DNA of 61,462 nucleotides, from the NCBI GenBank assembly GCA_947626285.1, contig CANQRR010000015.1, positions 1 to 61,462 on the forward strand. Reading direction: 5' to 3'. Shown piece by piece: positions 4,088 to 23,254 of this stretch. The stretch is from an uncultured Lachnospiraceae bacterium. GTDB taxonomy: Bacteria > Bacillota > Clostridia > Lachnospirales > Lachnospiraceae. The first letter of the stretch is position 1, and every line of letters begins with the position of its first letter. Under the pieces are notes generated by a model. The model made no database searches. It was given only the letters and a program-made list of their open reading frames with translations, and was not told the origin of the DNA. The translations under genes were made by a program, and so were the position numbers.

Positions 4088-4588
4088 CTAATCCTCTCTC
4101 ATATTGTCCATCAGCTTCAACATTTCCAGCTCGCTGTTAAAGCTCCTCGCCAGATTCTTCTCCAGCCACACAAGCTCACCCTGCCAGGTCGCGTACTGGC
4201 GGTACTGGATGCGCACCGCGTAAGTGGCGATCCCGCCCCGGTACTCCAAAAGCTCCGCCTGCTCCATCACCTTGTCCGGCCGCTCCTGCCGCGCGGCCAT
4301 CCGGCGCTCCACGCTCTCCGTCTGCTCCTCCGGTCTGCCCTTCTTTCTGCCCCCGTCCTTCGCGCCGTAATCGCGCAGCGCCACGGACGCCTGCGGGAAA
4401 TGGATGCGCTCCATCACCTCGTCCATCATCAGCAGGAGCTGGTACGGATCGTCGAACTCGGCGGGCTCTTTGCTGTAACAGCTGTACAGCCGTCCCGTCT
4501 CCTTCCCGTCGACGCTCGTATCGATACAAATCACCATCAAATTGGGGGCGGCAATGCCAATCTTATAAAAGCTCTGCGCGTCACTCAA
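4088..4588 (-). CDS. Small two-module protein of an unnamed family, in operon with the SARP regulator
   Basis: 166 residues from a TTG at 4588, chosen because AGGAGG sits eight bases upstream. I do not recognise a named family. The C-terminal module (about residues 122-162) reads TYAVRIQ...TWQGELVW...FNSELEMLKLMD. It matches a module in the small proteins at 20354-20626 and 22808-23254. An N-terminal copy (about 17-60; VICID...GRLY...FDDPYQLLLMMD) looks like a diverged duplicate and aligns well with the N-terminal module of the 22808 protein. The two modules are joined by a charged Lys/Arg/Glu-rich linker (75-110). No signal peptide or membrane segment, so probably cytosolic. It starts 66 bases after the regulator stop and shares its promoter and terminator, so a role with that regulator is inferred. 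Confidence 0.7.
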   Translation of the reverse strand: MSDAQSFYKIGIAAPNLMVICIDTSVDGKETGRLYSCYSKEPAEFDDPYQLLLMMDEVMERIHFPQASVALRDYGAKDGGRKKGRPEEQTESVERRMAARQERPDKVMEQAELLEYRGGIATYAVRIQYRQYATWQGELVWLEKNLARSFNSELEMLKLMDNMRED

Positions 4589-4654
4589 TCACGCTTCCTC
4601 CTCACTATCCTTCTGACCTTCCCGTCAGATCCTGCAACCTCTCCGTCCGCGAGC

Positions 4655-5932
4655 TCACACGTCCTTCTTATCCCCATCCACCGGGCGCCACGCCGTCTCG
4701 CTGTCACGGAACTTCGGTTTCTCGTTCATGGCGTCCTCGTCGATCTCCGCCACGGAAGCCACATAATAATTCACCTGAAAATCGCTCCGACGTACCTTTT
4801 TGCTGAACGCGCGGTCGATCCGCGCGGACACCTTCGCGCAGTTCTCCTGATTGATCTCCGGCAGCATGATCAGGTACTGCTGCGTATTGTAACGCGTGTA
4901 GAAATCCCCGCGCCTCAGCACCTCCATGATCGAATCGCGCAGCGCCTTGGAGACCGTCTGCTCCTTCTCCGCGGAACCCATATCGCCGCCCGTGTACTTG
5001 ATCGTGCACAGCATCAGATACACCGACATACCGCTTCGCTCCATCATACGGCTGATCACATGATAGATATCAACAAAACTCGGATAGGTGCAATAATACG
5101 CCCCCGGCATCTTCTCCCGCTCGCGTATCCGCTGCTTGATATCCTGAATGACCCCGGAGGACTGTGAGATCCGCTCCGCCATCAGGCGCGCGCGGCTTAA
5201 CATCTCCGGCGAAGGCGGCAGCCCAAGCTCGTCGAAAAACAGCTTCGTCACCTTCTCGTAGATCTCCATCGCCTCGCGGTAACGGGACATCGCGATCAGA
5301 CTGTCGATCTGCCACAGCGCCCAGTCGTCGAACGGGTAAATCGACGCGGCCGTCGTCGCCAGCTGGAGAATGTCGTCATAGCGCTCATCCTCCTGCAGCC
5401 AGCCGAACAGTTTCTGAAGGCTCTCCGTGTAGAGCTCCTGGTAGTGCACGCTGCGCACGGCCACCCAGTCCTCGCCGATCATGTTCGGGAGAAACTCGCC
5501 CGTGTACAGACGGCACGCCTCCAGATAGATCTCTGTCTTCGCCGCCTGATCCGGCTCCCTCCTGCCCTTCTCGATCAGCTTCTCAAACTCAATGGCGTCG
5601 ACCTGTACCGGGACCGCCTCATTCTCCCAGCGGCACATTCCCCGCTTGATCACCACGTAATTCGCTTCCGGGAACCCCGCCGCCCTGAACTGCTTCTTCA
5701 GGCGGAAGATCGTGTTATTCAGGCTTCCGTTTTTATTCTCGACCTCCTCGCGCCCGTACAGCGCGTCCGCCAGGCTCGTCTTCGCGATCCCACCGGCGTC
5801 AATGTTCATAAGGAGAATCTGCAGAAGCTGCATCGACTTCGACGTCGTGTTCCGATCCAGGGCAACCTCCCTTCCCTCATAGTAGAGGGAAAATCCTCCA
5901 AGCGTCTTCGCTTTCAGCACATGCTCAGCCAT
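4655..5932 (-). CDS. SARP/BTAD transcriptional regulator with a degenerate GGDEF-like C-terminal domain
   Basis: 425 residues. Residues 5-105 form an OmpR-type winged helix as in AfsR/SARP activators (LLQILLMN, SLADALYG, LNNTIFRLKKQF). Residues 110-255 form the bacterial transcriptional activator domain of TPR-like helices (YTGEFLPNM, ALWQIDSLIAMSRYREAMEIYE, ending DELGLPPSPEM). Residues 285-400 look like a GGDEF-fold domain: VYLMLCTIKY, then RRGDFYTRYNTQQYLIMLP, where diguanylate cyclases have a D-x(3)-RYGGDEF-type signature. Here the signature is NTQQY (349-353), so cyclase activity is not expected; it may be a sensing or dimerisation domain. It is first in a two-gene operon with the small protein at 4088-4588, from the promoter at 5991-6019. 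Confidence 0.85.
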   Translation of the reverse strand: MAEHVLKAKTLGGFSLYYEGREVALDRNTTSKSMQLLQILLMNIDAGGIAKTSLADALYGREEVENKNGSLNNTIFRLKKQFRAAGFPEANYVVIKRGMCRWENEAVPVQVDAIEFEKLIEKGRREPDQAAKTEIYLEACRLYTGEFLPNMIGEDWVAVRSVHYQELYTESLQKLFGWLQEDERYDDILQLATTAASIYPFDDWALWQIDSLIAMSRYREAMEIYEKVTKLFFDELGLPPSPEMLSRARLMAERISQSSGVIQDIKQRIREREKMPGAYYCTYPSFVDIYHVISRMMERSGMSVYLMLCTIKYTGGDMGSAEKEQTVSKALRDSIMEVLRRGDFYTRYNTQQYLIMLPEINQENCAKVSARIDRAFSKKVRRSDFQVNYYVASVAEIDEDAMNEKPKFRDSETAWRPVDGDKKDV

Positions 5933-5990
5933 ATCGTTCTCACCTCACCCTGCAAACCGCCGCATCCGCGCAACGGCATTTATCTTTTTC

Positions 5991-6019
5991 ATTATGCCAC
6001 AGAATCGCCGGAACCGCAA
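5991..6019 (-). promoter_or_regulatory. Sigma-A promoter of the SARP regulator operon
   Basis: Minus strand TTGCGG (6019-6014), 17 bases, CATAAT (5996-5991). It lies about 60 bases upstream of the regulator ATG. The 11-bp repeats seen at the adhesin promoter are not present here. Confidence 0.6.
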
Positions 6020-6076
6020 CATATATTTGTGACACATGGAATGAAAAGCCTCAAAATGTCAGACAAATCGGCCTGT

Positions 6077-6913
6077 TTAAGATAACCTGTGCAGTACTTC
6101 TTCAAAACACACCCCGTCCGTGAGCGGAAGATCCAGCTCGATCGACCGCTCGATGCAGCGCTTGATGAAAAGCGACGCCTTGCGCACCGAATCCTGGAAC
6201 GGCACGCCGTTGACCGCGTCCGCCGCGATGATCGCCGCGAAGATGTCCCCCGTGCCGGAGCGCTGCGTCCCCACCTTGTGCGTGCGCCGGATCTTCCCCG
6301 GCTGCCCCTGCTCGAAGCAGTAATTCGCGATAAACCCGCCCTGCGGGATCCCCGTGATCACCACCTTCGACGGTCCCAGCGCGCTCAGCTTCTCCGCCAG
6401 CGCCACAATCTCCCGCATCCGCCAGTGATCCGCGTGGTACGGCGTGTCCGTCAGGATACACGCCTCCGTCAGGTTCGGCGTGAGGATGTCCGCGAACGTC
6501 ACAAGCTTCTTCATCTCCTCGCACATCTGCGGCGTATAAGTCGGGTACGGCTTCCCGTAATCCCCCATCACCGGGTCGACGACAACGATCGTGTCCTCCC
6601 GCCGGAACTCCCGGAAAAAGCGAATCACGATCTGGATCTGCTCCTTCGAACCCAGGAATCCGCTGCTGATCCCCCGAAACTCCAGTCCCAGCTTCTTCCA
6701 CTCATCAATATACGCCTGCATCCGATCCGTGTAATCCTCAAAGAAAAAGCTTTCAAACCCGGTATGGTTCGAAAAGATCGACGTCGGCACCGGGCAGCAC
6801 TGAATCCCCATCGCGGAGATGATCGGCAGCGCCACCGCGATTGAACAGCGCCCGAACCCCGAGAAATCATTGATCACGGCAATCTTCTTTTGATGGTTGT
6901 GGTCTGGTCTCAT
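6077..6913 (-). CDS. Pyridoxal/pyridoxamine kinase-like protein (ribokinase superfamily)
   Basis: 278 residues, ATG with GAGGTG seven bases upstream. The N-terminus KKIAVINDFSGFGRCSIAVA and VDPVMGDYGKPYPTYTP (about residues 112-128) match PdxK/PdxY-type kinases. The C-terminal anion-hole/catalytic region reads GTQRSGTGDIFAAII, with the GTGD aspartate as catalytic base. The reaction would be ATP-dependent 5'-phosphorylation of pyridoxal, pyridoxamine or pyridoxine in B6 salvage. It is monocistronic from a strong promoter at 6951-6980. Related Lachnospiraceae proteins are often labelled pyridoxamine kinase; hydroxymethylpyrimidine kinase is a less likely alternative. Confidence 0.85.
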   Translation of the reverse strand: MRPDHNHQKKIAVINDFSGFGRCSIAVALPIISAMGIQCCPVPTSIFSNHTGFESFFFEDYTDRMQAYIDEWKKLGLEFRGISSGFLGSKEQIQIVIRFFREFRREDTIVVVDPVMGDYGKPYPTYTPQMCEEMKKLVTFADILTPNLTEACILTDTPYHADHWRMREIVALAEKLSALGPSKVVITGIPQGGFIANYCFEQGQPGKIRRTHKVGTQRSGTGDIFAAIIAADAVNGVPFQDSVRKASLFIKRCIERSIELDLPLTDGVCFEEVLHRLS

Positions 6914-6950
6914 GTATGTTCACCTCAATGAATTTCTATGCATCTGAACC

Positions 6951-7085: not shown

Positions 7086-10000
7086 TCAGCTGCGCTTTCT
7101 GCGCTTGAGCAGCAGTGCCAGGATCAGCAGTAGTGCCGCCGCTGCCAGCAGTCCGACATAGAGCATGATCGGCGTCTCGTCGCCCGTCTTCACGGACTTC
7201 GTCGAGCTCGGAACCACAAACTCTTCCGTCTCCTCGCTGCTCTCCTTGCGCACCTCGGTCTTCTCGGTCTCGGATTCAGATTCGCTCTCCTGCTCGCGCT
7301 CCTGGTTCGTGATCACCACGGAGCCCTTCAGGTTCTCCTCGTCCATCGTCACCGTCGCGCCGTCCACGGTCACATCGTACTGGAACGACGCCGCTCCTGC
7401 CACCGGCCTGCCGGCCGCGTCGACCTCGGCCACGTACACCGTCGTCCTGCCGCCCTCCGGTACCGTCACCTTCACGATATCCGATACCATCGACAGCCCG
7501 CTCATCGCCAGCGGCACGATGTTCTTCGAAACATCCTTCGAGAGCGTCGTCAGCTCCGCGTCCGCGAAGATCCCCGCGTAGAACGTCTCATTGCTCGGCT
7601 GCAGCGCGCCGCCCGCATTCAGCAGCTGCTTCGTCACCGTCAGCTCACCCTCGCGGTAGAACTCTCTCGGTACCTCCGTGAACTGGTTGCGGAAGTAGAT
7701 CGTCTTCGTCCCGTCGCCCTTCGCGACCTCCACGACGTTGCCATCGTAGAAGTCCACACTGAACATCTCGCCCGTCGCCAGCGCTCCGCCGAAGCTGTTC
7801 AGCGCGAAGCCGTCCTTCGTCGTCTCTGCCACGTAGTAGGTCTTGCCGACCTCCAGATCCTCAAACGTCGTCGAAGATGTGTTCATGTTCTTGAACTCGA
7901 TCGGCTGGATCTCGGATACCCGGCTCGTCAGGGCCTCATCCTCGAACAGCGCCACATAGAAGGTCGCGTCCACCGCGTTCCACAGCTCATTGTTGTAGAC
8001 CAGCTGCTTCGTCACCACCAGGTTCGTGTCGACCGCCTCCGGGGCGTTCATCACATCCAGAGCTACCTTTACCTCAGCCTGCGTCTTATCCTCGCCAAGC
8101 CCGATCGCGAACTCGTACTTCTTCGGCTCGCCGTTCTCATCCAGCTCGATCTCATATCCTTCCGGCGCCTGCGTCTCTACGAAGTAGTACTCATTCGCCT
8201 TCAGGCCGCCGATCGTCAGCGTGCCGTCCATCTCGGTCAGGTAGGCCGCGTTGTTGTACAGCGCGTATCCGCTCTCGGCCTCATCGGTCTTGTAGTACAG
8301 CTGGAACGCCGCGCCCGCGAGCAGGCTGCCCGTCTCCTGATCCGTCTTCGTCAGTGTCACGGAGCCAACGATCGGTGCATCCTCTACCAGATATACCGTA
8401 TTGCCGTTCTCATCCGTTACTGTCTGCGCGTCGGTCGTCACCTTGCCGTCCTTGTCGATCGAGAACTCGATGTCGTTCGTGTAAGCGTATCCGTCCGGAG
8501 CGACTGTCTCACGCATCACGTACTTGCCGCCTGCCTTCAGTTTGTCACCAAAGTCGTGCGTCTCGTCCTCCTTCGAGATCCAGCTGTCGACCTTCGTCTC
8601 CACCGTGTTGCCGTTCTCGTCCGTCGTAAGCTCGTATACCGTGATCTCCGCGCCCGCGACTTCCTTGCTGTTGTCGCCGACCTCAGTCTTGTTCACGTGG
8701 AAGTGCAGCTTCGAATCCTCTACTAGGTATACCGTGTTGCCGTCCGCATCCGTCGTCGTCGGCATACCCGACTGGATCTCTCCGTCTGCAGTTACGTTGA
8801 ACTCGATATCCGATACATAATTGTAGCCGTTCGGAGCAACTTCTTCACGGAGCAGGTAGCTTCCGCCTGCCTTCAGCTTGCCGCCGAAATCGTGTGTCTC
8901 ACCCTTCTTTGAGGTCCAGCTGTCAAGCGCCTCGCCGACGATCTCGCCGTTCTCGTCTACCGCGTACACCGTGATCTCCGCGCCTTCAACCTCTGCGCTC
9001 TCATCGCCAAGCTCCGTCTTGTTCACGTTGAACTTGACCTTCACGTCGTTTACAAACTTAATATCACCTGTGTAAGTCTCATTCTCTACAGTCACCGCTT
9101 TCTGTACATCCAGAGTACCATCGCCGTTGTCCTTCGGCGTAACGGTTACCGTGTAGATCGTCGTATCGAAGTAGTAATCATCACCCTCCGCGATCTCCTT
9201 CACGGTGTAGGTGAATGTCTTATCCACATCCTCGATACCGTATTCCACAATATCCTCAAACTTGATATTGCCCTGCTCGTCGTTCTGGACTCTCCCAACC
9301 TCTGCTCCGGTCTCATCCAATACCACGAACGAGAAAGTACCCATCGTCGTCTCCGGATTCTCCATCGCCTTGACCGCGTCAAGAGAGAGTGTGCCGGTCG
9401 CCGCATAAGTGTTCACAAACGCTGCCGTCGCTGTGCCGGTCGCCTCCTCAGTAACAGTCTGCGTAACGCCCTGTACCTCGCCATCCTTCTTCGTCACGAC
9501 ATCTGCAGTCAGAACGCCTTTGTGATCATCAATGATCGTTACTTCATAGGTATATACCGTATCATCGTAGGTCACGCCGTCAAGGACATTCCCGTTCTCC
9601 TTCGCTTCCTCAGGAATAACCTCTTGGATCGTATAGATATAAGTATAACCTCTGTCGGCCTTCTTAAAGGTGTGCTTCGCAAACTTTGCAAGCGCACGGA
9701 TTGCTCCGTCTTCACCAGCGTCTTCAAGAGTCAGCGTCTTCGTCTCAGTCCAGCCGCCGTCTGCTACGATGTTACCTTCCGCGTCCCTCTTCTCAACCGT
9801 CAGCTCGAAGGTGTACGTCTCGCCGTCCGCCTTAGGAGCCGGACGTCCGTTCACGGTCTTCGTCACCTCAGGCTGGAAGTCCACATCGTTTGTCTCGTAG
9901 GTGTTGACATACTCGACACTGATCGTCGGCGTTGTTGCGCTGATCGTGCCGCTGGCGACTGTACCATTAACTACACCATCAGAATCCTTAATTGTAGTGG

Positions 10001-13000
10001 TGTACGGATCGTCTTCCGTCTTGATCTCCTCTACCGTATACGCAGTGCCATAGTAGATGTCACCAATCGTCGCGGTCTGGCCGCCCTTCAGAGTAAGCCT
10101 GCCATTTTCAATCGTTACAGTCGAACCGTCCTCACGCGTTACCATACCGTTGTACAGGCTGCCGCCCAACGTCACCTCAAACGTAAAGCTGTCATCCTCA
10201 GAACCGTCAATATTGGTCTTCTTAATCTGCAGACTACCCTTCCTGTTCTTATTGACAAAGGTTGCCTCAACTTCGTCTGAATGTTTCGGAAGCGTCACAG
10301 TCCATGCGCCGGTCGCAGTCTTCTTCAACGTCGCACCGCTTACTGTTACCTCTTCGCCGGTTCCATCCTCTGCCATAACCGTAGCAGATTCAATCGTATA
10401 TTGCGAACCGGACTTCTCTACCTTAACGGTCGCCGTATATACAGTCGTATCGTAAATCACGTTCGGATCTTCTTCTTCGTTTTTCTGCTCCTCACGAATC
10501 GTGAAGTGATACGTGCCCGCCTGATTGAACGTGATATCTTCGAACTTGAACGTGCCAACCTTGGTACCGTCCGCCTCCTCTGTGATCTCATTCTCAATTC
10601 TCAGGCTGCCGCCTGCTGTTCCGTTAATGATCGCCTTAGGATCATCCGTCGACTCCTCCTCCAAAATGAAGGTGAAGTCATCCTCTGTCAGATCACGTCC
10701 CACCAGCTTCTTATCGCCATCGAAGCTCAAGGTGATCGTATCCGGGTAGGTATTTGTCACGGTCACGCTCTGCGACGTTGCATCGCCGAGCGGTATGCCC
10801 GCATCCAAGTCGACGTTGCTTCCATCTACCGTGTAAGTATACGCCGCTACATAGTTGCCTTCCGACGTCTCAGTAACCGTATAATTGCCCTTCTTCAGCC
10901 CAGTGATCGTCACGGTATTATCAGCATTCATCTTGAAGATGATCGTCTTGCCGTCGTCACTTACGGAGAAAGAACCTGCAATCTCGCCATCTACATCAGC
11001 GCCCGACACGTCTTCTTCGTCTGTTCCGGCTACCTCGATCTCATATACATCCGTTGTATAGAGATCCTTCGTCTCGCCCGTCACAACCTTTTTAATCTTC
11101 AGCTCGCCGATCTCCGGATAGGTGTTCTTCACTTCCACAGATGTGGACTTATTGTTCTCGATTTCTACCTTAGGAGCGTCCGTGCGGTCTTTCATATCTC
11201 CCTCAGCATCCTCCGCAACCTCACCATTCACCTTCACAGAATAGGTCGCTGCAAAGTTTGCATCCTCCGGCAGTTCCTCAGTCACAATGTAATCACCTGG
11301 CATCAGTCCGCTGATCTTCACCGTCACATCCTTCGGCATATGAAGAACAATTCTATCCTTGTTCTTCTGTACTTGTTCACTTGTAGCCAGTATGCCATCA
11401 AAGGTTACTTCGATCTCGTCAGAAGACAAATCCGCGCCCTTCGGTCCTCCGGTCACAGTGATCGTATACGTCTCAGAGGTCGGAGCCCATGTGCCGTCTG
11501 TCTTCTTGACAATCGAAAGCTCGCCCTCGTTCGTGTAGGTGTTCGTAATCTTCACACTGCCGTCTTTTGCGGTCGGAGTGAGTTTCACGGTTGCACCAGT
11601 GCTATCTGTTCCGCTTTCTTCGCCGCCTGTCACATTGTAGGTCGCCCCATAGTTTACACCATCCGACGTTTCCTCCGTCACGGTATAGCTACCCACCGGA
11701 AGCTCCGTGAACTCAACCACATCGTTTGCACCCAGCGTGAAGGTATAGGAATACATGCCATCCTTCTCTTTTACGTCATTCTCTTCAAACGACGTCGGCT
11801 CGCCACTATTGATCTGCACTTTCGCTTTCGCAAAGTTCTTCGTACTGCTCACAGTGACTCTGTATTCCTCACCTTCCGGAGCTCTGCCGGACACTACCTT
11901 CTGCACGGACAGACTACCGTAGGTGTATGTGTTCGTGAAATTGAAATTGGTATTGTCTACATCTGTCTTCGTAGCAACCAGCTCGTTAGTCACTTCATCC
12001 TTTGTGACAACTACTGTAATCTTGTGCAGTCTGGTATCGTTCGTGAAGCCGCCGTCACCGTCCGTCACCGTCACAGTTTCCTTGATTACATAATAATGAG
12101 TGCCTACATCCGTGTAACCAATCGAGTCAAAGCTGAAGTTTTTGCTGCCTGCTGCTGTCAGATCGTTGATAGACGCGCTGCCTATCGACGTAGCGCCATC
12201 CAGACTATACTCATCATCCGTCTCGTACAGCTCGAATGTAAACGTCGCCTGCGGCGCCGTCGTGCCACCTACAACATTGAGCGTCTTCGTACCGCCGAAA
12301 TCTACGCTTGCCTTAGTCGGGTAGGTATTCGTCACGATCACTTTAACCGTATCGCCATCCTCTACCGTCACGGTTCCGCCTACGACGCCTTCCGTCGATT
12401 CTGCGTCTTCTGTTACGCCATCGACCGTTGCCGTATACAGAGCAGCCGTCTCCCCAGTCGGAAGGATCTCCTCCACCGTATACTCACCGATCGGCAGCCC
12501 GCTAAACGTCACGATCTCGTCCCTCGCGATTGTGAACTGCCTGCCAATCTCCACATTATTACCCGCAGCGTCAGTTCCGTACACAGACGTCGTGGTCTTC
12601 GGAGCTCCCACAGGAGACTCTATCTTGATCTTCTCGTCGTTCCAGTTTATCTTATCATTTGTCACTCTGACGGTGTACTCATCCGATGTATGCGCAGCAA
12701 TCGTATACGAATCGCCGGCAACGATTTTCTCTACTTCAAGCGTGCCGCGCTTCTCGCGGTTCGTGAAGGTCTTATCCGGAAGCGTAAACGCGTTGTCCGC
12801 CGGAAGATTCTCTGCGCCCTCATCCGCGCCGCCGTAGACCTCAGTAGCAATCACTTGCGGGATCTCACTGCCGTCCTCAGCCTTGACTGTCTTGATCGTC
12901 TCAATCTTCGCCTCGGTAATCTCATAAGTCGTGCCATCATCGGTCTTCGCAACCGTTATGGTCACGCGATATTTTGTCTTATCATACTCGATACCACTGT

Positions 13001-16000: not shown

Positions 16001-19000
16001 AGAACTGCAAACCGATCACTTCATCAGGATTTTCTTTTGAGCACAACAAGCCAAGGCTCTTTCCAGCATTGTCTTTAAGAACCTCATCCCACTGCTCTTT
16101 TGTGAGGCTGCCCGTCACATGAACAGTGTATATTGCTTTATCGTCCGCCGTATTACCAAGTACTTCCTTCGTGACAGACAGTTTGCCCTTCTTCACGCGG
16201 TTCACGAAGGTGTTATCGGAATTAATCGTGTAAACGTCACCTTCAACCGCGATAATTGCATCAGTCACTGCGCTCTCCGCGTCACTCTTATCCGCTTTCT
16301 TCGTTGCGGTCACGCTCTCTACCTTATACTGATACGGCGTTACAGACTTATCCAGCACAACCACGACTGTTATCGTATATTCCGCAGCATCATATTCAAT
16401 ACCGTCATCCTCTGATTCCGGAATGTTCTCAGACAGCGTGAACGTATACGTTCCTTCCTTACTGAACGTAAATCCGTCAAACAGAATTTCACCGCTTGCA
16501 TTATTGCCGCGCACAATACCCGCGTTCTTCAGATCATCTGTCAGATCGTTACCTTCAACATCCTTCACAACAAGCCCCGCAGAATCGCTGGTCAGCTTCA
16601 ATGTGAAGTTGTAATCACCAGCACCAAGCGTTCCGTTCGTCAGAGCCTTGTTCGCTTTCAGGCTCATCTCTGCATCCGTCGGATAGGTATTCGTCACGCC
16701 CACAGATGCAGACGTCACGTCTTTCGTTATCTCGACAGTCACCGGGGCGTTCTGCTTATCTGTCGAACCGCCAACCGTGTACTCCTTGATAAATTTTCCG
16801 CTCGACGTTTCTTCAACCACATACTTGCCCTTCGGCAGCTTGCTCAGAGTAACCGTCTCTCCGGTCTTGAAGGAGAACTTCACGGAATTCGCTGTAATCT
16901 TCGCCTGCGTTGTAATATCCTGATCGCCCTTCTTCACCTTCACACCGCTCATGTCGATGCCGGTCTGACCCTCAACCGGTTTAACCGTCACTTCATAAGA
17001 AGCATCCGACGGCTCTACGCCGGACACTGTCTTGGTGACAGAAAGCTCGCCAAGACGCTCATTGTTGAAGAGTACATTTTCGAAGGATTCAAGCTCATCC
17101 ACCTTGGAGAGATCAATATTCCCACTACTGAAGACATTGTTCTTATTTGCATCTGTGTCATTCTTGACCTTATAATAGGTAATCTTTGTCTTAAGCGGGC
17201 GAAGACTGCCATCTATCTCCACATGCGCAATGTACTGATCTGTTGCATAAATATAATTACCGTCACCAACTTTCTCCTCAATCAGATACCATGCATCCGC
17301 CTGTGTCCAAAGATTCTCAAGCTTAAGACCGCTAAAAATAATCTCTCCGCCGTTGTTGTTCGTTTTATCAACGATTTGCCACGTTTCCCCATTAAACTTT
17401 TTCAGCGTAAAGGTAAACGTTTCCCCCTCAGCGGGGATATCTGTGGTATCGATCGTCTTTGTACCTTTAAGATCAAATGAACCATCAATCACTATGTTAT
17501 TCGTAAATTCTGCCGTTGGAACTTCAGTCGTGTTCCCTGCAGTCACCGTCCCTGTCCAGATTCCGAAAGAAGGCGCAGTCACTTCAATATCGCTTTCTTT
17601 ATCCAAGACCTCTGTTACGGTATACTCACCCGGCGTCAAATTATCAAGCTGAACCCAACTTGATTCTCCGTTCTTAATTTGAATCGAAATCGATTCTTCG
17701 TATCCATTCGGGCCTTCCACTTTGAACGTATACGTTCCATCTGCAAGCGTACCCTCTGTCGGATTGCCGTTAATCGTTACGTTTTTCTTAATCTTGAGGC
17801 TGCCCGTCTCCTCTCCGGTAGTGTTGTTGAAAATAACTTCATCCTCAGGAATAGACTCACCTAAAAGATTCTCATTAATAGAATTATCTGCGTCAATAAG
17901 AGCTTTCGGAGATTCAGCACTCGTCTTGTAATACTTCTTCTCCGTGACAAACCATTCCGTCGTAGTCGTACCATTAATAGTTTCGCTCTTTTTTTCTACA
18001 TGTACTTTTACTACATAAAGAATCTTTGAAATCTCATATCCATCAATCGGAGTCCAATCTTCACGAATCAAATACCAGTGATCGCCCTCCGAATTTTCAC
18101 CATATTCTTGATCCTCAAAGGCAATCTTCGCGCCATCATTCGTTACATTATCAATATTGTCCCATATTCCATTGGCTAACTTATCTAAGTAAAATATAAA
18201 TTTCCCATTTTCCTCAGCGCTTGGAGCCTGCCCGTCTACATACTTCGAGGCATGGAATCCCTCCTGATCCGGAATCAAAGTCTCACCAGTATATGGCCAC
18301 ATATGCCCTTCGCCATTAAGTGTGACACTCTTACCAATCAAGCAACCACTATAATTACCGTTCCCAGTTATGATATCTGCATAAGGAGCAATCACATGAC
18401 CGAACATCGGAGCATCAGACATCAACACTTTTGTCGCATTCGGAAATGTGAATACGATTGACGTACCTGTTGCGTCGCCCTCTGTAGTATTAAGTGTTAC
18501 CCCATTAACAGACTTGATTATCGGAACATGAACTTCCCCTGAATCCTCGATATTGATAATTGTTTTTGTATTATGAATCGAACCGTCTCCGATTAATTCA
18601 ATATGAAAGCCATTATTATCAATATGGCATTTATCTCCCAGTGTCAATGATACTTTAGAACCCAGCTCTATTTGAAATGGGGCTCCATTTTGTCCATACC
18701 AGTTTCCATTTGGTGCCGTCTCTGGTATCTCTTTTGTCTCTGTATCACCAACTAAATAATTCATACCAGATACAACAGCATTTCTTAAAGTATTCCAATC
18801 AACATATTTATCTGTTCTATAGATTGGTGCACTTCCACCACTACTCCCGGCTCCTCCTACGCCAATCTCGTTGTATATACTCGTAGAGTTGTTTAAATAC
18901 TTTCCACCGTTTGCACCGTTTTCACCGTCAGGAATATCACAACGATCTGTAACAGTATTATTAGTGCTTCCTACATACAAGGGCTTCCAATAGTATGTGT

Positions 19001-20228
19001 GGCGTCCATTCAGTTTTCCGCCGACAAGTCCCGTACCTTGCTTCTCCTGCCCGTTTTCCTTCCATGTCAAATTACCGGTTTCGACCAGCCCAGCAATATA
19101 AGATGGGTTCACTAGTGGAGAATCCGCATATCCTGCTCCACTCGTACCCTTAAGATTCCCCTGCGCCAGAATACCACCCATGGTATGCTGGTTCATCTCA
19201 ATATCGCCACCATTGCCCTCATCATCCTTAATGGCAACCGCGTTATAACCCTCCAACAAATACTTTAGGGAATAGCTCGGGATAGTATCTGTTGTCTCAT
19301 AGTTATTCCCTGCACCGGCGCTTGCACCATAAAGTGAAAAACTATCCGTCGAGAACTCTACAGCCTTGACCTCGTCCTTCCTGTTCAAATTGACCTCATC
19401 CGTCACATCTTCCAGTTCGCCGTTGTCCTGAATATGGCTCACAACCGCAACCGGATCACCGGATACATCTTCAACCTCTGTCTTAAGAGGATCTTTGAAT
19501 GTCATCTGTACAGACACATCCCCACCGACAGGTTCTACTTCTACGCCATCTTTCGTAACGAAGTAAATATCGTAAAAAACATGTTCGCTAAATACAACAT
19601 CCGGATTGGCAGCCTCTACCGCTTCTACCGCTTCCGCATATTCCTTGGAATCCTCCGGCACCGGCTCAGCCTTCATCTCTACGCCATAGGGAAGCTCCAC
19701 ACCTTCCGGCACAGTAACTTCGATCGTTACTTTTCCGTCTTCATATGTATAGGTCTGCGGCTCTGCAATCTCTGGCAGCTCCGTCTCGCTTTCGCTCTCG
19801 GTCTCCTCGACGATCTCTTCGGTCTCAGTTTCAGTCTCCGCCTCAGTGAGCGCTTCCGTGACAACCTCGGTCTCGCTTTCCGTCTCCGTGACTGCCTCGG
19901 TCTCCGTCTCGGCTTCCGTTGCCGCTTCCGTCTCTGCCGGAGTCAGGGCGTCGGGATCACTCTCGAGCTCGATCTCACTCTGAGCAGCTGTCTCCGTTTG
20001 AGGAGCTTCCGTCTGTACCGCCTCCGTCTGCGGAGCCTCGGTCTGTGCCTCCTCCGTCTCCGGGGCTTCCGTCTGCACCGCTTCAGTCTGCGGAGCTTCC
20101 GTCTGCCGCTTGCTGCCTGTCACGCTGCCGATCACCGCTGCCATCGACGTCATTCCCTGCGAATTGACGAGCATGGCCAGCGCCAACAGCATTGCCAGCA
20201 TTCTGCTAAAACGATTTGTCTTCTTCAT
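7086..20228 (-). CDS. Giant cell-wall-anchored adhesin with Cna-B/pilin-type isopeptide repeats
   Basis: 4380 residues. A signal peptide (about 1-31) is followed by a Thr/Glu-rich stretch of QTEAP-like repeats (about 40-165), then a beta domain (about 166-310) shared with the secreted protein at 20893-21579. Residues about 320-640 resemble the choice-of-anchor-A adhesive fold (MGGILAQGNL near the start, FGHVIAPYADIITGNGNYSG near 610). From about residue 800 come some 25 beta domains of about 100 residues, mixing Cna-B/DUF5979-like units (SVTKTVSG ... VTNTYP) with Spy0128/FctA-like pilin units; Lys near the start and Asn near the end fit self-made isopeptide bonds. The C-terminus has KSVKTGDETP, a hydrophobic span and KRRKRS, a sortase signal without a classical LPXTG. 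SD AAAGGGG precedes the ATG. It probably forms a long surface stalk presenting a head domain. Confidence 0.9.
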   Translation of the reverse strand: MKKTNRFSRMLAMLLALAMLVNSQGMTSMAAVIGSVTGSKRQTEAPQTEAVQTEAPETEEAQTEAPQTEAVQTEAPQTETAAQSEIELESDPDALTPAETEAATEAETETEAVTETESETEVVTEALTEAETETETEEIVEETESESETELPEIAEPQTYTYEDGKVTIEVTVPEGVELPYGVEMKAEPVPEDSKEYAEAVEAVEAANPDVVFSEHVFYDIYFVTKDGVEVEPVGGDVSVQMTFKDPLKTEVEDVSGDPVAVVSHIQDNGELEDVTDEVNLNRKDEVKAVEFSTDSFSLYGASAGAGNNYETTDTIPSYSLKYLLEGYNAVAIKDDEGNGGDIEMNQHTMGGILAQGNLKGTSGAGYADSPLVNPSYIAGLVETGNLTWKENGQEKQGTGLVGGKLNGRHTYYWKPLYVGSTNNTVTDRCDIPDGENGANGGKYLNNSTSIYNEIGVGGAGSSGGSAPIYRTDKYVDWNTLRNAVVSGMNYLVGDTETKEIPETAPNGNWYGQNGAPFQIELGSKVSLTLGDKCHIDNNGFHIELIGDGSIHNTKTIINIEDSGEVHVPIIKSVNGVTLNTTEGDATGTSIVFTFPNATKVLMSDAPMFGHVIAPYADIITGNGNYSGCLIGKSVTLNGEGHMWPYTGETLIPDQEGFHASKYVDGQAPSAEENGKFIFYLDKLANGIWDNIDNVTNDGAKIAFEDQEYGENSEGDHWYLIREDWTPIDGYEISKILYVVKVHVEKKSETINGTTTTEWFVTEKKYYKTSAESPKALIDADNSINENLLGESIPEDEVIFNNTTGEETGSLKIKKNVTINGNPTEGTLADGTYTFKVEGPNGYEESISIQIKNGESSWVQLDNLTPGEYTVTEVLDKESDIEVTAPSFGIWTGTVTAGNTTEVPTAEFTNNIVIDGSFDLKGTKTIDTTDIPAEGETFTFTLKKFNGETWQIVDKTNNNGGEIIFSGLKLENLWTQADAWYLIEEKVGDGNYIYATDQYIAHVEIDGSLRPLKTKITYYKVKNDTDANKNNVFSSGNIDLSKVDELESFENVLFNNERLGELSVTKTVSGVEPSDASYEVTVKPVEGQTGIDMSGVKVKKGDQDITTQAKITANSVKFSFKTGETVTLSKLPKGKYVVEETSSGKFIKEYTVGGSTDKQNAPVTVEITKDVTSASVGVTNTYPTDAEMSLKANKALTNGTLGAGDYNFTLKLTSDSAGLVVKDVEGNDLTDDLKNAGIVRGNNASGEILFDGFTFSKEGTYTFTLSENIPESEDDGIEYDAAEYTITVVVVLDKSVTPYQYKVESVTATKKADKSDAESAVTDAIIAVEGDVYTINSDNTFVNRVKKGKLSVTKEVLGNTADDKAIYTVHVTGSLTKEQWDEVLKDNAGKSLGLLCSKENPDEVIGLQFSISKDDIVMIDKLPIGVYHVEEFIEDEVAYEASYVVDAGETKKTGGIDVEVPDEKEIPDGHTVKITNTYPNEVSVAFGGKKHVEVKGTGVDENTVYPNATFTFELYNAVKTEDGKYETNGDAIKSVDVTMPLENGEDGSFVFNEASLGEAVKGALTYKEANTYYYIVKETVTDEEKGFTYDGTTYVIKVDVTKSVDGKDLEAAVSIVSPTEKAKTLRKAEDGIFYGLDFTNTYTYGDLVVEKAVLASEDVADPNKEYTIYVTNMEDKDLSGAMVAVTGDDGEFGEAQAVTAAQLTLDNTVIVLKLKGSQKAKITQLPLGTYHVEEIIPVAETGDYSATYKGGVAVVDENGVNVELEQGEGKTTSGSVTVTNTYPNQGELRVRKKVTGTWLPDADTTEYEIEISRKDGATMTGAEVYKVAVGADNTSVETEVEGALAADGLKITVKLKAGEEIVVRNLAPGNYVVEETTQNEAFTTQVTVTENEATTTPGAKVEFYFGYKDTVSVEVQNDYKNKGALEITKKVDGTTAPSDEAEQETWYKITVEGPAGAFTTENVGESNEKYEPGVPSNDGSKVTFKLRKDGSVRFKNLPAGNYAVTEAGSGFTKKFTVDPATEGSESATVNLSGEKTEGTVTVNNHYPNKTSMTLKGTKAVVGKKLESQKYSFYINLESTVPEGNKDGATLEHEEKIYNSDTEIDFGSITFTKNGEYTFKIGENDPDDTDVNKDDIIYTVIVNVDNVNGDYQITKVEITNSKSGESKTYDKNAEDGEWPEDGELFGLPEYEKDGATASFINDVKTGTLLVSKTVIKGNVDVDPNTTYTVNVTADVDWSHVTVDGAESTDITETKEGEEDVVVGKSFKIKGDETVTLNNLPVGTYTVTEESGTGYVASYVVSKDGATVAGESNEKVVLGYQDKKTIAITNTYPKNVSMSLEGTKQVEDGLLGTYSFKLIKVDGPDGVAIDAADADGSLTVQNAGETFTFNGITFSAAGTYVFEVSEVEDEDNSGIEYDKTKYRVTITVAKTDDGTTYEITEAKIETIKTVKAEDGSEIPQVIATEVYGGADEGAENLPADNAFTLPDKTFTNREKRGTLEVEKIVAGDSYTIAAHTSDEYTVRVTNDKINWNDEKIKIESPVGAPKTTTSVYGTDAAGNNVEIGRQFTIARDEIVTFSGLPIGEYTVEEILPTGETAALYTATVDGVTEDAESTEGVVGGTVTVEDGDTVKVIVTNTYPTKASVDFGGTKTLNVVGGTTAPQATFTFELYETDDEYSLDGATSIGSASINDLTAAGSKNFSFDSIGYTDVGTHYYVIKETVTVTDGDGGFTNDTRLHKITVVVTKDEVTNELVATKTDVDNTNFNFTNTYTYGSLSVQKVVSGRAPEGEEYRVTVSSTKNFAKAKVQINSGEPTSFEENDVKEKDGMYSYTFTLGANDVVEFTELPVGSYTVTEETSDGVNYGATYNVTGGEESGTDSTGATVKLTPTAKDGSVKITNTYTNEGELSIVKKTDGTWAPTSETYTITVTGGPKGADLSSDEIEVTFDGILATSEQVQKNKDRIVLHMPKDVTVKISGLMPGDYIVTEELPEDANFAATYSVKVNGEVAEDAEGDMKDRTDAPKVEIENNKSTSVEVKNTYPEIGELKIKKVVTGETKDLYTTDVYEIEVAGTDEEDVSGADVDGEIAGSFSVSDDGKTIIFKMNADNTVTITGLKKGNYTVTETSEGNYVAAYTYTVDGSNVDLDAGIPLGDATSQSVTVTNTYPDTITLSFDGDKKLVGRDLTEDDFTFILEEESTDDPKAIINGTAGGSLRIENEITEEADGTKVGTFKFEDITFNQAGTYHFTIREEQKNEEEDPNVIYDTTVYTATVKVEKSGSQYTIESATVMAEDGTGEEVTVSGATLKKTATGAWTVTLPKHSDEVEATFVNKNRKGSLQIKKTNIDGSEDDSFTFEVTLGGSLYNGMVTREDGSTVTIENGRLTLKGGQTATIGDIYYGTAYTVEEIKTEDDPYTTTIKDSDGVVNGTVASGTISATTPTISVEYVNTYETNDVDFQPEVTKTVNGRPAPKADGETYTFELTVEKRDAEGNIVADGGWTETKTLTLEDAGEDGAIRALAKFAKHTFKKADRGYTYIYTIQEVIPEEAKENGNVLDGVTYDDTVYTYEVTIIDDHKGVLTADVVTKKDGEVQGVTQTVTEEATGTATAAFVNTYAATGTLSLDAVKAMENPETTMGTFSFVVLDETGAEVGRVQNDEQGNIKFEDIVEYGIEDVDKTFTYTVKEIAEGDDYYFDTTIYTVTVTPKDNGDGTLDVQKAVTVENETYTGDIKFVNDVKVKFNVNKTELGDESAEVEGAEITVYAVDENGEIVGEALDSWTSKKGETHDFGGKLKAGGSYLLREEVAPNGYNYVSDIEFNVTADGEIQSGMPTTTDADGNTVYLVEDSKLHFHVNKTEVGDNSKEVAGAEITVYELTTDENGNTVETKVDSWISKEDETHDFGDKLKAGGKYVMRETVAPDGYAYTNDIEFSIDKDGKVTTDAQTVTDENGNTVYLVEDAPIVGSVTLTKTDQETGSLLAGAAFQLYYKTDEAESGYALYNNAAYLTEMDGTLTIGGLKANEYYFVETQAPEGYEIELDENGEPKKYEFAIGLGEDKTQAEVKVALDVMNAPEAVDTNLVVTKQLVYNNELWNAVDATFYVALFEDEALTSRVSEIQPIEFKNMNTSSTTFEDLEVGKTYYVAETTKDGFALNSFGGALATGEMFSVDFYDGNVVEVAKGDGTKTIYFRNQFTEVPREFYREGELTVTKQLLNAGGALQPSNETFYAGIFADAELTTLSKDVSKNIVPLAMSGLSMVSDIVKVTVPEGGRTTVYVAEVDAAGRPVAGAASFQYDVTVDGATVTMDEENLKGSVVITNQEREQESESESETEKTEVRKESSEETEEFVVPSSTKSVKTGDETPIMLYVGLLAAAALLLILALLLKRRKRS
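8375..9040 (-). repeat. Tandem duplicated domain near the adhesin C-terminus
   Basis: Two consecutive units of about 110 codons have nearly parallel sequence. One runs from FNVNKTELG to YLVEDSK, the other from FHVNKTEVG to YLVEDAP. Both contain a THDFG...KLKAGG...RE.VAP.GY core. They are SpaA/prealbumin-like Cna-B domains with a recent common origin. Boundaries are approximate. Confidence 0.7.
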
Positions 20229-20353: not shown

Positions 20354-20626
20354 TCAATCGTCCGGAATTCCCATGGCCGGGACTCCCGGAATCGCTGCGT
20401 CGCCCGGACTTGCGCCTCTCCATTCCGCGGGCAGATCACCCGGCCCGCTCGCGACGCTTCCGGCGGAGGCAGCCTCCTCTTCTCCCACTGCTGAATCGAT
20501 CAGGCGCAGCAGCTCGATCACGCTTCGAAAGCTCTGCTTGCTGTCCCCCTGGATCCACTTTACCTGACCCTGCCAGCTGTGGTCCTGTGTATCGTTGACT
20601 TCCAATATGAACATTTGCTTTTTCAC
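20354..20626 (-). CDS. Small single-module protein of the unnamed family, upstream of the adhesin
   Basis: 90 residues from a GTG at 20626, supported by AGGAGG ten bases upstream. Residues 5-45 form the module: MFILEVN, SWQGQVKW (WQG at 18-20), FRSVIELLRLID. It lines up residue by residue with the C-terminal modules of the proteins at 4088-4588 and 22808-23254. Residues 50-90 are a Gly/Ala/Pro/Ser-rich tail with no predicted fold. No signal peptide, so cytosolic. It is the first gene behind the promoter at 20704-20735, and the giant adhesin starts 125 bases after its stop, so the two are likely co-transcribed. Function unknown; a role in controlling or assembling the adhesin is inference. Confidence 0.7.
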   Translation of the reverse strand: MKKQMFILEVNDTQDHSWQGQVKWIQGDSKQSFRSVIELLRLIDSAVGEEEAASAGSVASGPGDLPAEWRGASPGDAAIPGVPAMGIPDD

Positions 20627-20703
20627 AGATGTAATTCCTCCTCATGGTCTGCGCCCTACGCGCAGGATCCCCAGAGTACAGTACGATATTATAAGATAAC
20701 ATG

Positions 20704-20735
20704 ATTATACAACACGTTGGTCACATTTTGGTAAC
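20704..20735 (-). promoter_or_regulatory. Activator-type promoter of the adhesin operon with 11-bp-spaced direct repeats
   Basis: On the minus strand GTTACCAA (20735-20728) and GTGACCAA (20724-20717) are direct repeats with exactly 11 bp between starts. Seven bases after the second comes a perfect TATAAT (20709-20704). No TTGACA-like hexamer stands at the usual distance; the repeats occupy that place. SARP activators are known to bind heptamer repeats with 11-bp spacing next to a -10 box, and a SARP gene lies at 4655-5932. Binding by that protein is inferred. Confidence 0.6.
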
Positions 20736-20837
20736 AAAAACGTGCTTTTTGGAAAAAAAGTCAAAAAAATTTTTAAAAACGCTCAATTTTTTATATCTAC
20801 TTTAGAGTTGCTGTTTTTTAAGTTGAAAATCATTTTT

Positions 20838-20868
20838 CAAAAACAGGGGCTACGCTCCGTAACCCCTG
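20838..20868 (-). terminator. Terminator of the secreted Glu/Thr-rich protein gene
   Basis: Minus strand CAGGGGTTACG / CGTAGCCCCTG with a GAG loop, followed by TTTTTG. It follows the stop at 20893 and separates this gene from the adhesin operon. A further inverted repeat, TTGAAAA/TTTTCAA, lies at 20823-20840. Confidence 0.85.
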
Positions 20869-20892
20869 GCTGATTTCCTATTCAATTCTTTC

Positions 20893-21579
20893 TCAGATCG
20901 TAAAGCTTACGGAGCTCATGTTGCTTCCTGCTGCGGTCTGCGCTGTCACATCGCTCGCACCGTTCTCGTCGATCTTCAGGATATTCTGGACATCTGCCGT
21001 TCCGATCTGAACTGTTTTGAACTGAATCTGGATCGTCGCCTCGCTGTCCGCTATCTCTGCGCCGTCTACCGTGAAGGTCACATCGTAGAAGCTGTACTGT
21101 GCTTCGTCGTCCGCCTCGGTGCTCGCCGCTGCGATCTGCTTCGCTGCCTCATACTCCTCGCTGCCTGCCTCAAGCTTTCTCACCTGCATCTGTGCGTTTT
21201 CCGGGAGGTTTGCCTGCGCGGTGATGATCACTTCTTCGTTCTCAAAGCTGAACTCTCTCGCTGCCTCGGCCGGAACTGCCTCAGTCTCAATCGCCTCGGT
21301 CTCGACTGCCTCAGTCTCGATCGTCGCCTCTGCGTTTTCCTCAGTCTCGGCTGCCTGCGCTTCCTGCGCTGTCTCTACCGGAACCTCTTCCGCCGCGATC
21401 GTCTCGAATCCGACAACCTCGATCTCGATGTCCGAAATCACTGTCTCTGCTGCGATCTCTTCTGCTTCCTCGAAGGACTCCTCCACGATGATCTCTTCTT
21501 CTGCCATTGCCGGAGCGCTTACCATGAATGCTGCCATCGCTGCCGCAAGGATCATTTTTTTCAGGTTTGCCTTCATCAT
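20893..21579 (-). CDS. Secreted Glu/Thr-rich protein sharing a domain with the giant adhesin
   Basis: 228 residues, ATG with GGAGG eight bases upstream. A signal peptide ends near APAMA (about residue 26). Residues 27-110 are Glu/Ala/Thr-rich with repeats such as ETEAVETEA, like the adhesin linker. Residues about 115-228 parallel the adhesin domain at its residues 166-310: polar start, LPENAQMQVRKL versus VPEGVELPYGVEMKAE, SEEYEAA versus SKEYAEA, SFYDVTFTVDG versus VFYDIYFVTKDG, and an end of VSFTI versus AVEFST. It lacks a sortase signal and membrane anchor, so it is probably released or held non-covalently. It has its own terminator and an AT-rich upstream region with TATACT at the -10 position. 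I know no function for the shared domain. Confidence 0.75.
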   Translation of the reverse strand: MMKANLKKMILAAAMAAFMVSAPAMAEEEIIVEESFEEAEEIAAETVISDIEIEVVGFETIAAEEVPVETAQEAQAAETEENAEATIETEAVETEAIETEAVPAEAAREFSFENEEVIITAQANLPENAQMQVRKLEAGSEEYEAAKQIAAASTEADDEAQYSFYDVTFTVDGAEIADSEATIQIQFKTVQIGTADVQNILKIDENGASDVTAQTAAGSNMSSVSFTI

Positions 21580-21714
21580 TTCGTTGTCCTCCTTCTTTTT
21601 TGCTGTCTATATTCGAAATCGTTTTCGTTCTTTCTGATTCGAGTATAGCATGCAAACTCTTTCGCAAATTATTTCGTCAGGAGGATTTTTTGTTTTTTTC
21701 GCGCTACTGCAAAA

Positions 21715-21759
21715 TTTTTTTGAAATAAAATGCCGCCGGAGCGGTATCGTCCCAGCGGC
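21715..21759 (-). terminator. Probable terminator after the Rpn fragment
   Basis: Minus strand GCCGCTGG (21759-21752) and CCGGCGGC (21739-21732) pair with one G-U, followed by ATTTTATTT. It lies about 40 bases past the stop at 21799. Confidence 0.55.
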
Positions 21760-21798
21760 TGCATAAGGAATATCAATATAACACAACTCTTCGGAGAG

Positions 21799-22104
21799 TC
21801 AGACTTTTATCTGGCACATCAACTCATCCAGAATTTTCCTTTCGTCGTATTCCGGCGCATACTTCTTCGCGATCTCTATGATTCGGCTGATCTTCTCCTC
21901 CGATTCTTCCAGAGCCTCTGCGATTTGTGCCATGGTATAGGATTTCTTCAGCTTCTTCACTACTTGTTGAACTAATTTTAGCTCGGCTCCCCAATCTATT
22001 CCCTTTTCAATCCCACGTTCTTCTACCAGATCAGATAAGTTACACATTTTCGCTGTCGCCTCCTTTAACTCATGGCTCATTGGGATTTTGTATGTACCTT
22101 CCAA
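21799..22104 (-). pseudogene. Remnant of an Rpn-family (PD-(D/E)XK) nuclease/transposase
   Basis: The open frame encodes 101 residues that match only the C-terminal part of Rpn-family recombination-promoting nucleases: LEGTYKIPMSHEL, MCNLSDLVEERGIEKG, and a helical tail. Intact proteins are about 300 residues and carry the nuclease core upstream. Here an in-frame TAA stands just three codons before the first usable TTG, and the next gene ends only about 20 bases away, so the catalytic part is gone. The stretch is AT-richer than its neighbours, as expected for a decayed mobile gene. Expression as a short protein is possible but there is no good ribosome site. Confidence 0.7.
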
Positions 22105-22123
22105 GCCAGTTTATGTTTCCTTA

Positions 22124-22741
22124 TCAGTCCTCCCACGGGCGGATGCGGTAGCGCACGCCCAGCTGTTCACAGATCGCGCGGCATTGGTCTTCTTCCTGCG
22201 TGGTCAGCGTGGTAGCTACGGTCGTCATCACCACGTTCGGCACGTATTTTACGCACTCCTTCGCGAAGTCAAGCATCGCGTCGAACGACTGCTCGCCGAA
22301 CTTCGGGCGCACAAGCTCGTAATATTTCTTCGGATTCGGCGTGTTCAGGCTGATCGATACCGTGTCGACGAGCCCCTCGAAGAGCGGCGCGATGTCCTTT
22401 CCGTTCACCAGATTGCCCAGACCGTTTGTGTTGATGCGGATGAGCTTTCCGTAGCGCTCTTTCACGAAGCGCGCGGTCTCCAGCAGCACGTCCAGCGCCT
22501 CGGTCGGCTCGCCGAAACCGCAGAAGACCACCTCCCCGTACTTGTCCAGGTCGAATTTCCCGAATTCCGCCAGCACCTCTTCGAGTGTCGGCGTGCGTTC
22601 CAGCCACAGCGACCCGGACTCCTCCATGCTCTCGCGCGTCTGCCGCAGGCAGAACGTGCACGCGCACGGGCATTTGTTTGTCAGGTTCACGTAGAGGTTG
22701 TCGTGTACCTCGTATAAGATCGTCATTGCAGTGTGTTTCAT
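22124..22741 (-). CDS. Radical SAM protein, TatD-linked subfamily
   Basis: 205 residues from the ATG at 22741, chosen over an earlier ATG because AAGGAG lies nine bases before it. The cluster motif C-x3-C-x2-C is seen in NKCPCACTFCLRQT. GFGEPTEALD (about residues 77-86) is the SAM-binding GGE-like motif, followed by IRINTNGLGN and SISLNTP beta strands. Length and sequence fit the small radical SAM family associated with TatD nucleases; no tatD gene is present here. The chemistry is unknown. It is downstream of prfA and the small gene at 22808 in the same direction and may be read from the same transcript. Confidence 0.85.
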   Translation of the reverse strand: MKHTAMTILYEVHDNLYVNLTNKCPCACTFCLRQTRESMEESGSLWLERTPTLEEVLAEFGKFDLDKYGEVVFCGFGEPTEALDVLLETARFVKERYGKLIRINTNGLGNLVNGKDIAPLFEGLVDTVSISLNTPNPKKYYELVRPKFGEQSFDAMLDFAKECVKYVPNVVMTTVATTLTTQEEDQCRAICEQLGVRYRIRPWED

Positions 22742-22807
22742 GGTATTGCGCTCCTTTACAACCGTCGCCTGATGGGATCTGGTCCCTGTCAAGCGGCGCT
22801 GTTCTTT

Positions 22808-23254
22808 TTATATCTCGTGCCGCCGCATCTCCGCGTCGATTTCTTTCAGCAGCTCCATCTCGCTGCGGTACTCGTGCATGATCCCGTCCGCGCCGAGCAG
22901 GACGCCCTGCCAGCCGGCCCTGCGGCGGCTCTGCACCAGAATGTCAAAGGTTCTGCGCTCGCCCCGCTGCGCAAGGATCTCAGCGTCGCCCAGCAAGATC
23001 TCCGGCGCGGCATAGTGTCCCGCCCCGGCTGCCGTGCCTCGGAAGCTGCGCTTCTCCTGGAAGGTCTGCGGATAGCCCCGCTTGTCAAACAGCTTATCCG
23101 CCAGCACGATCAACTCGCCAAAATCGCGGAAATGGATCGCTTCCGGATTCATTTTGCTGTAGAACCTGCCCCGAAACGCGTCCGCGGCGTCGCCATCCAC
23201 ACAGACGCGAATGCTGTTCGCCGGATAGGTTCGTTCTTTTTTCATCTCTTCCAT
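22808..23254 (-). CDS. Small two-module protein of the unnamed family, next to prfA
   Basis: 148 residues, ATG at 23254 with GGAG nine bases upstream. Module 1 (about 14-56): IRVCVDG, FRGRFYS, FRDFGELIVLADKL. Module 2 (about 102-142): TFDILVQ, GWQGVLLG (WQG 115-117), YRSEMELLKEID. Both align with the two modules of the protein at 4088-4588, and module 2 with the single module at 20354-20626. The linker (58-100) is unlike the other proteins. No signal peptide or membrane segment. It starts 12 bases after prfA ends, so it is in the prmC-prfA operon. Function unknown; its place beside translation-termination genes may be only operon history. Confidence 0.7.
   Translation of the reverse strand: MEEMKKERTYPANSIRVCVDGDAADAFRGRFYSKMNPEAIHFRDFGELIVLADKLFDKRGYPQTFQEKRSFRGTAAGAGHYAAPEILLGDAEILAQRGERRTFDILVQSRRRAGWQGVLLGADGIMHEYRSEMELLKEIDAEMRRHEI

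Follow-up and report, generated by a model that had tools for sequence, protein, structure and literature searches.

Three small genes in one stretch of DNA from an uncultured Lachnospiraceae bacterium (assembly GCA_947626285.1, contig CANQRR010000015.1; the whole 61,462-nucleotide stretch is referred to here as the window) encode proteins that share an unnamed module marked by the residues Trp-Gln-Gly (WQG). Each has a different neighbour – a SARP-type activator, a giant surface adhesin and prfA – which raises the question of what the module is and what links its settings. A preliminary description of the window took the three for a family spread across functions, perhaps a sensor or adaptor. 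We find that the three represent a new family, here called WQG, whose small members have one or two modules predicted as beta-beta-beta-alpha, and that the family is tied to SARPs carrying a degenerate GGDEF domain.

P0003 (166 amino acids, 4088..4588), P0004 (90 amino acids, 20354..20626) and P0005 (148 amino acids, 22808..23254) are genuine open reading frames (ORFs), all on the minus strand, a point absent from the preliminary description (plus-strand translations are meaningless), and the module strings quoted from them in the preliminary description are exact. Our search profile comprised 24 full-length members, P0003 and P0005 included; P0004, three double-cassette proteins (L021, L026 and L029) and two fragments (L027 and L031) were omitted. 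A whole-genome search with this profile matched P0004 at E 2.3e-10, and since the profile lacks P0004, chance likeness is excluded and the proposed module of about 45 residues common to all three proteins is borne out. Six places in the genome were matched: the three window genes, a gene on contig C75 encoding an 87% identical twin of P0004, and two near-identical short copies of 53 and 58 amino acids on contigs C39 and C43. The C75 twin has its own proposed operator and is followed by the start of a second giant adhesin, which is ended by the contig end and is 51% identical to the window adhesin over a 317-residue alignment from its start.

The view that no named domain covers the module also holds for Pfam-A and NCBIfam, in which no family scored above its curated cut-off for P0003–P0005. 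Scans of the 24 members against the same collections gave scattered weak matches, with no family matched by more than two members (best single E 0.00086; cut-offs were printed for the first member only). No PDB chain was matched by sequence with the full-length profile (best E 0.19), and no signal peptide was seen in WQG proteins when judged by eye. Literature searches for the motif, for BTAD or SARP regulators in Clostridia and Firmicutes, and for adhesins there returned nothing on the WQG family, the broader queries being judged on the titles and abstract starts of part of the matches.

P0003 and P0005 each carry two diverged copies of the module (residues ~16-62 and ~118-166 of P0003), and P0004 carries one. 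The N-terminal half of the longer proteins (CVD..GR.Y..F...L...D), overlooked in the preliminary description, repeats the C-terminal WQG half in diverged form. When profiles of the two halves were aligned locally, the probability was 79 (E 1.5e-5), against only 12.5 for a forced global alignment; with a larger module set the local figure rose to 94 (E 1.1e-7). Residues P65, G118, R130 and W135-Q136-G137 (P0003 numbering) are invariant in an alignment of 84 full-length proteins. AlphaFold2 predicts strand-strand-strand-helix for each module copy of P0003 (E17-26 E29-36 E43-45 H48-61; E121-131 E134-141 E146-150 H153-165) and of P0004 (E6-12 E19-24 E29-33 H36-55), with a mean predicted local distance difference test score of 79.5 and a predicted template modelling score of 0.73 for the former and 75.9 and 0.47 for the latter. 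At E <= 0.001 a fold search found no match in the PDB for either model and none among viral models for that of P0003. The pair of modules is present twice in proteins of ~270-300 amino acids (L021, L026, L029 and L205). At three loci of the phylum sample described below, single-module genes stand in tandem, N-type then C-type (L136, L147 and L158), which suggests that two such genes may have fused to give the two-module protein.

Searches of bacterial genomes placed the three proteins in one large, unnamed clostridial family, not in separate known families. P0005, used as a single query sequence, had matches in 30 of 150 Lachnospiraceae genomes (E <= 0.01), two of which (G008 and G112) were set aside as their matches (L032 and L033) are unrelated proteins. 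The profile A5 matched in 56 of 392 genomes of the order (E <= 1e-5) and in 33 of 398 genomes of the phylum (E <= 1e-4; the phylum sample), many of the latter matches being single-module. Of 225 stretches confirmed after a pattern scan of genome contigs, we took the best 80, from 79 loci, for neighbour counts; these loci are mostly titled Lachnospiraceae, with some other Clostridia. Two unannotated faecal records titled ‘Bacteriophage sp.’ also encode WQG relatives (MT836211.1, 156-805; MT837964.1, 31-153) and are possibly bacterial contigs.

The neighbours of these genes point to one recurrent partner. In the window, P0003 starts 66 bp behind the gene for a SARP-type activator of 425 amino acids (4655..5932, minus strand), which has an N-terminal regulator/BTAD region (PF03704, E 1.5e-13) and a C-terminal degenerate GGDEF domain (E 0.0047, below the Pfam cut-off). 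Among 47 SARPs (46 neighbouring SARPs of 395-440 amino acids plus that of the window) BTAD was found in 47, Trans_reg_C (the N-terminal winged helix of OmpR type) in 37 – the window SARP not among them – and GGDEF in 17 (E <= 0.01). The SARP family profile matched AfsR (4e-11, positions 7-253) and a diguanylate cyclase (5e-6, 300-393) among PDB sequences. The partner regulator resembles the activators AfsR and EmbR, both matched by profile, in having a BTAD, and differs from them in carrying a degenerate GGDEF domain in place of NOD/TPR or FHA. Active diguanylate cyclases have a GG[DE]EF catalytic motif; it is absent from the SARP C-terminus, where the window protein reads RYNTQQY and the consensus RYSxxQ. 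The same degenerate domain also ends HD-GGDEF proteins of this genome, after a regular GGDEF (C8:56903-57322, C4:69865-70278 and C45:9626-10051, the first two also with a receiver domain).

Consistent with this pairing, a SARP-typified cluster gene was present at 59 of the 79 loci and a large surface-protein-like cluster gene at 35 (SARP labels by BLAST). By hidden Markov model, 63 of 82 full-length WQG copies at these loci have a same-strand SARP within 1.5 kb upstream, 54 of them within 0.6 kb; the others have a SARP elsewhere (3), none (11) or too little room (5). The phylum sample gives 4 of 5 for full-length copies and 23 of 39 for single-module ones (7 of these being short of room); single-module copies at the 79 loci give 9 of 15. 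Full-length SARPs occur in 29 of 33 WQG genomes versus 52 of ~397 genomes overall (the WQG list covers 398 genomes and the SARP list 396, the latter giving only part of its weak rows).

Genes behind WQG tend to encode surface proteins. Directly after P0004 lies a giant surface adhesin of 4380 amino acids (7086..20228, minus strand) with eight FctA, eight DUF7601, five DUF5979 and three SpaA domains and pAdhesive_15. The gene after WQG was signal-like, by a crude regular expression, in 52 of 78 cases versus 250 of 694 other ORFs in one set, and in 30 of 35 versus 125 of 267 in another. Together with the SARP counts and the FctA/SpaA-type window adhesin, these figures bear out an enrichment of the family beside SARP/BTAD regulators and Cna-B-type adhesins. 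The present setting differs from that of characterized SARPs here too: it belongs to Clostridia, the genes downstream are for surface proteins rather than antibiotics, and WQG itself is not a SARP.

We observed direct repeats just upstream of the -10 box at WQG promoters. P0004, which starts at GTG behind an AGGAGG site, is preceded by GTTACC-N5-GTGACC and a TATAAT box; this 11-bp direct repeat constitutes proposed operator 1 (GTTACC-N5-GTGAC-N10-TATAAT, 20704..20735, minus strand). In 47 genomes of the genus, GTTACC-N5-GTGAC-N10-TATNAT occurs at 11 sites in 10 genomes and at none when reversed; eight sites lie before a mini-WQG gene and an adhesin, two before a mini-WQG gene and a SARP, and one before a SARP. 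Being orthologous or twin promoters, the eight sites before adhesins are not independent. The three SARPs resemble that of contig C6, described below (47-48% identity), not that of the window (24-25%). Proposed operator 2 (CGAAA-N7-CGAAA-N12-TATACT, 21642..21676, minus strand), a 12-bp direct repeat, precedes a small secreted protein of 228 amino acids (20893..21579, minus strand). Its motif CGAAA-N7-CGAAA-N12-TATANT, derived from the window and C43 promoters, occurs at 22 sites in 9 of the 47 genomes (5 when reversed), of which 17 precede the 228-residue secreted-protein family (by BLAST), one a mini-WQG gene and one an HD-GGDEF protein, with three unplaced. A WQG-like ORF follows within 1.3 kb at 13 of the 22, and two Diplocloster loci, with SARPs 47-49% like that of the window, also have the motif before WQG. 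Genus g151 has a further pattern, TATGAT-N6-TATGAT-N(9,13)-TATAAT, at 10 sites in 7 of 15 chosen genomes (none reversed), lying before five mini-WQG-adhesin operons, three PilZ genes with secreted proteins, one secreted protein and, by reading, one polysaccharide-related gene. A SARP search of nine of those 15 genomes found one SARP in each of eight and two in G489.

A general test looked 8-12 bp upstream of a -10-like box for direct repeats of 6 bp, perfect and with a period of 11 or 12. Positives numbered 43 of 165 WQG promoters (after near-duplicate removal; 167 in the clustering run), 2 of 108 SARP promoters and 11 of 1276 promoters of other genes (Fisher 5.6e-33). Among WQG promoters, none of the remaining periods between 6 and 17 gave more than two positives. 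After clustering of similar promoters, 31 of 106 first members were positive, and 37 of the 43 positives remain once five prompting sites and one microsatellite (L197) are subtracted. When the distance was left free, its distribution had a peak 9-12 bp before the -10 box, and the periods at which 7-mer repeats were commonest were 11, 12 and 22. WQG and SARP promoters together (276, periods 10-12) were positive in 17.8%, versus a mean of 0.8% in Markov-shuffled copies. Published SARP promoters have a spacing of 11 or 22 bp between their direct repeats, with the 3' repeat 8 bp from the -10 (PMC10936776). WQG promoters – with repeats 11 or 12 bp apart that mostly end 9-12 bp before the -10 box – come near the SARP layout, which is new for these genes.

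The repeats are distributed unevenly between gene layouts. Full-length WQG genes less than 60 bp behind a SARP have an operator in 0 of 26 cases (two of these rows, L056 and L068, are mis-assigned copies upstream of the SARP), against 2 of 11 at gaps of 60-150 bp and 10 of 31 at gaps of at least 150 bp, where the next gene is signal-like in 28 of 31. Single-module genes have one in 8 of 33. The window holds both layouts: P0003 lies close behind the SARP, with no repeat operator found in the gap, and P0004 follows proposed operator 1 and precedes the adhesin.

We put at about even the chance that WQG genes are targets of the SARP, or are produced together with it, and encode a modulator linking SARP activity to adhesin output. 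The SARP would likely bind the promoter repeats and switch on WQG-plus-adhesin operons, in cis or in trans; less surely, the WQG protein would act back on the SARP. A two-module WQG often lies near enough behind the SARP for co-transcription, and a one-module WQG would often be made as the first gene of the activated operon. Since a WQG protein would be made either with the activator or from the operon that it activates, we infer that it is most simply a modulator of that activator. The shared module could compete for the same SARP surface, setting – most simply limiting – adhesin output. A more specific and so far undescribed clostridial circuit can be offered tentatively, and we hold it rather less likely than this modulator role: SARPs with a degenerate GGDEF sensor and direct-repeat operators of their own might activate WQG-first adhesin operons, with the single-module WQG reporting back on adhesin transcription by competing with the two-module WQG that partners the SARP, and the circuit wired to cyclic di-GMP through shared GGDEF-like domains and PilZ genes of the regulon.

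Several observations weigh against a SARP-WQG regulatory circuit. The pairing of each SARP with an operator rests on guilt by association. With the window SARP as tblastn query, 27 family loci had a same-strand upstream SARP in 16 cases, a divergent one in 2 and none in 9. In the phylum sample, no WQG is listed within 2.6 kb downstream for 35 of 60 full-length SARPs, and a SARP therefore does not require WQG; the figure is an upper bound, as some SARPs lie at contig ends and, among 20 WQG-less regions that we fetched, a WQG-like fragment is present in one (L183) and several stop shortly after the SARP. SARPs without WQG also adjoin surface-protein genes, encoding a MucBP protein in one case (L177, by Pfam) and, by eye, sortase-like (L179 and L187) or TasA-like proteins (L182 and L184; Pfam gave no match for L182). 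As for the repeats, 122 of 165 WQG promoters lack a perfect one, the repeat in the window's operator 1 matches at only five of six positions, and repeat length and spacing were chosen after the window and g151 had been seen. Their commonest spacing is 12 bp, versus the 11 or 22 bp published for SARPs.

The copy beside prfA, P0005, lies 12 bp behind that gene. It had been counted as a link to a separate function, which is not supported: its near relatives (L006, L007, L008, L010, L017 and L020) have a SARP directly upstream. The second SARP of the genome (C6:10994-12193), beside which no WQG was recognised, is closest to the SARPs of P0005-type WQGs (33-42% identity). In G489, of the same genus, two loci are ordered mini-WQG, SARP, WQG, giant ORF; their parts resemble P0004 at 65-70%, the C6 SARP at 48-50% and P0005 at 42-54%. 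Taken together, these likenesses make P0005 look displaced; it is apparently an orphan of the C6 SARP, and the window seems to hold displaced pieces of a G489-like locus. Cognate SARP-WQG pairs thus appear, from the C6 likeness, to remain matched when split. A short radical SAM protein (22124-22792) is encoded 15 bp behind P0005, in the same direction as it and prfA.

An alternative to the modulator reading is that WQG serves in the cytosol as a chaperone or export pilot dedicated to the giant adhesin, and is encoded just ahead of it so as to be made first. Chaperones are known to be encoded in this way, as small proteins next to huge secreted clients, and single-module WQG genes do stand directly before giant or signal-bearing ORFs, in some cases with no SARP within 1.5 kb (in the window and at L132, L199-L202, L062 and L080). 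We nevertheless regard this role as unlikely. At eight loci (L069, L071, L075, L081, L083, L090, L091 and L098) a SARP-WQG pair is followed by a gene that we take to be holB-like and by no secreted protein, an arrangement left unexplained by an adhesin-only role; and across many families the module is tied to the SARP while the downstream proteins differ widely. Other housekeeping genes also lie downstream at these eight loci, which form a recurrent chromosomal place without an adhesin.

Somewhat less probable still is that WQG stands in for PilZ as a second-messenger or ligand receptor, reading cyclic di-GMP or a related signal for adhesin operons. Like single-domain PilZ receptors of cyclic di-GMP, WQG occupies the first-gene position behind the g151 promoter pattern (mini-WQG-adhesin operons at 5 of 10 sites, PilZ-plus-secreted-protein operons at 3), and the SARP carries a degenerate GGDEF domain that also ends HD-GGDEF proteins, one of them behind operator 2. 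Against this, a scan of the 24 WQG members at E up to 1 gave no PilZ (PF07238) match, and the conserved WQG columns do not evidently contain the signature of PilZ, RxxxR/[DN]xSxxG. The g151 PilZ proteins (L237, L239 and L241; PilZ by Pfam for two) are ~105 amino acids long and are each followed by a secreted protein.

We consider it improbable that WQG is a co-regulator binding DNA or RNA, or an antitoxin fold of HicB type put to regulatory use. The beta-beta-beta-alpha module bears a weak likeness to HicB-type antitoxins (2yzt, which we take to be HicB-like, 6u0i and 6hpb), but all structure-comparison Z-scores fall below the tool's telling level. Profile comparison (hhalign) with seven HicB sequences gave a probability of 0.2 and a score of 10 against a shuffled mean of 9, no Pfam HicB match was found in the 24 members, and HicB differs further from WQG in the latter's tandem duplication and SARP context. 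The initial suggestion of one module scattered over unrelated functions as a general adaptor draws on the three differing window neighbours and is very improbable, given that most relatives occur in the same context, a SARP cassette or the surface-protein operon that goes with it, and the prfA copy looks displaced; of the sensor-or-adaptor idea, ‘adaptor’ is still a fair guess.

The remaining window features, all on the minus strand, frame these genes. The 228-residue secreted protein resembles the adhesin N-terminal region (27.6% over 76 amino acids, E 2.8e-4); its family, with a second member on C39 (11357-12049), often has a mini-WQG gene within 1.3 kb behind and operator 2 ahead. A terminator-like hairpin (20844..20868) lies between this gene and the P0004 promoter, such sites being about as common there as in shuffles (6 versus a mean of 4.6), and another terminator-like site (7033-7008) lies behind the giant adhesin. 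Upstream of the SARP is a gene that we take from its sequence to be pyridoxal-kinase-like (6077..6913), with a promoter-like site in front (6980-6951); it is also present at three related loci (L079, L094 and L118).

To our knowledge, little has been described of how giant surface adhesins are controlled in commensal Lachnospiraceae and their relatives. If the modulator reading is true, the WQG family would bring to this question a name, a likely regulator, explicit candidate operators and a set of target genes, making it directly testable, and WQG would serve as a marker for genes now called hypothetical. WQG probably helps gut bacteria control the timing of adhesin production.

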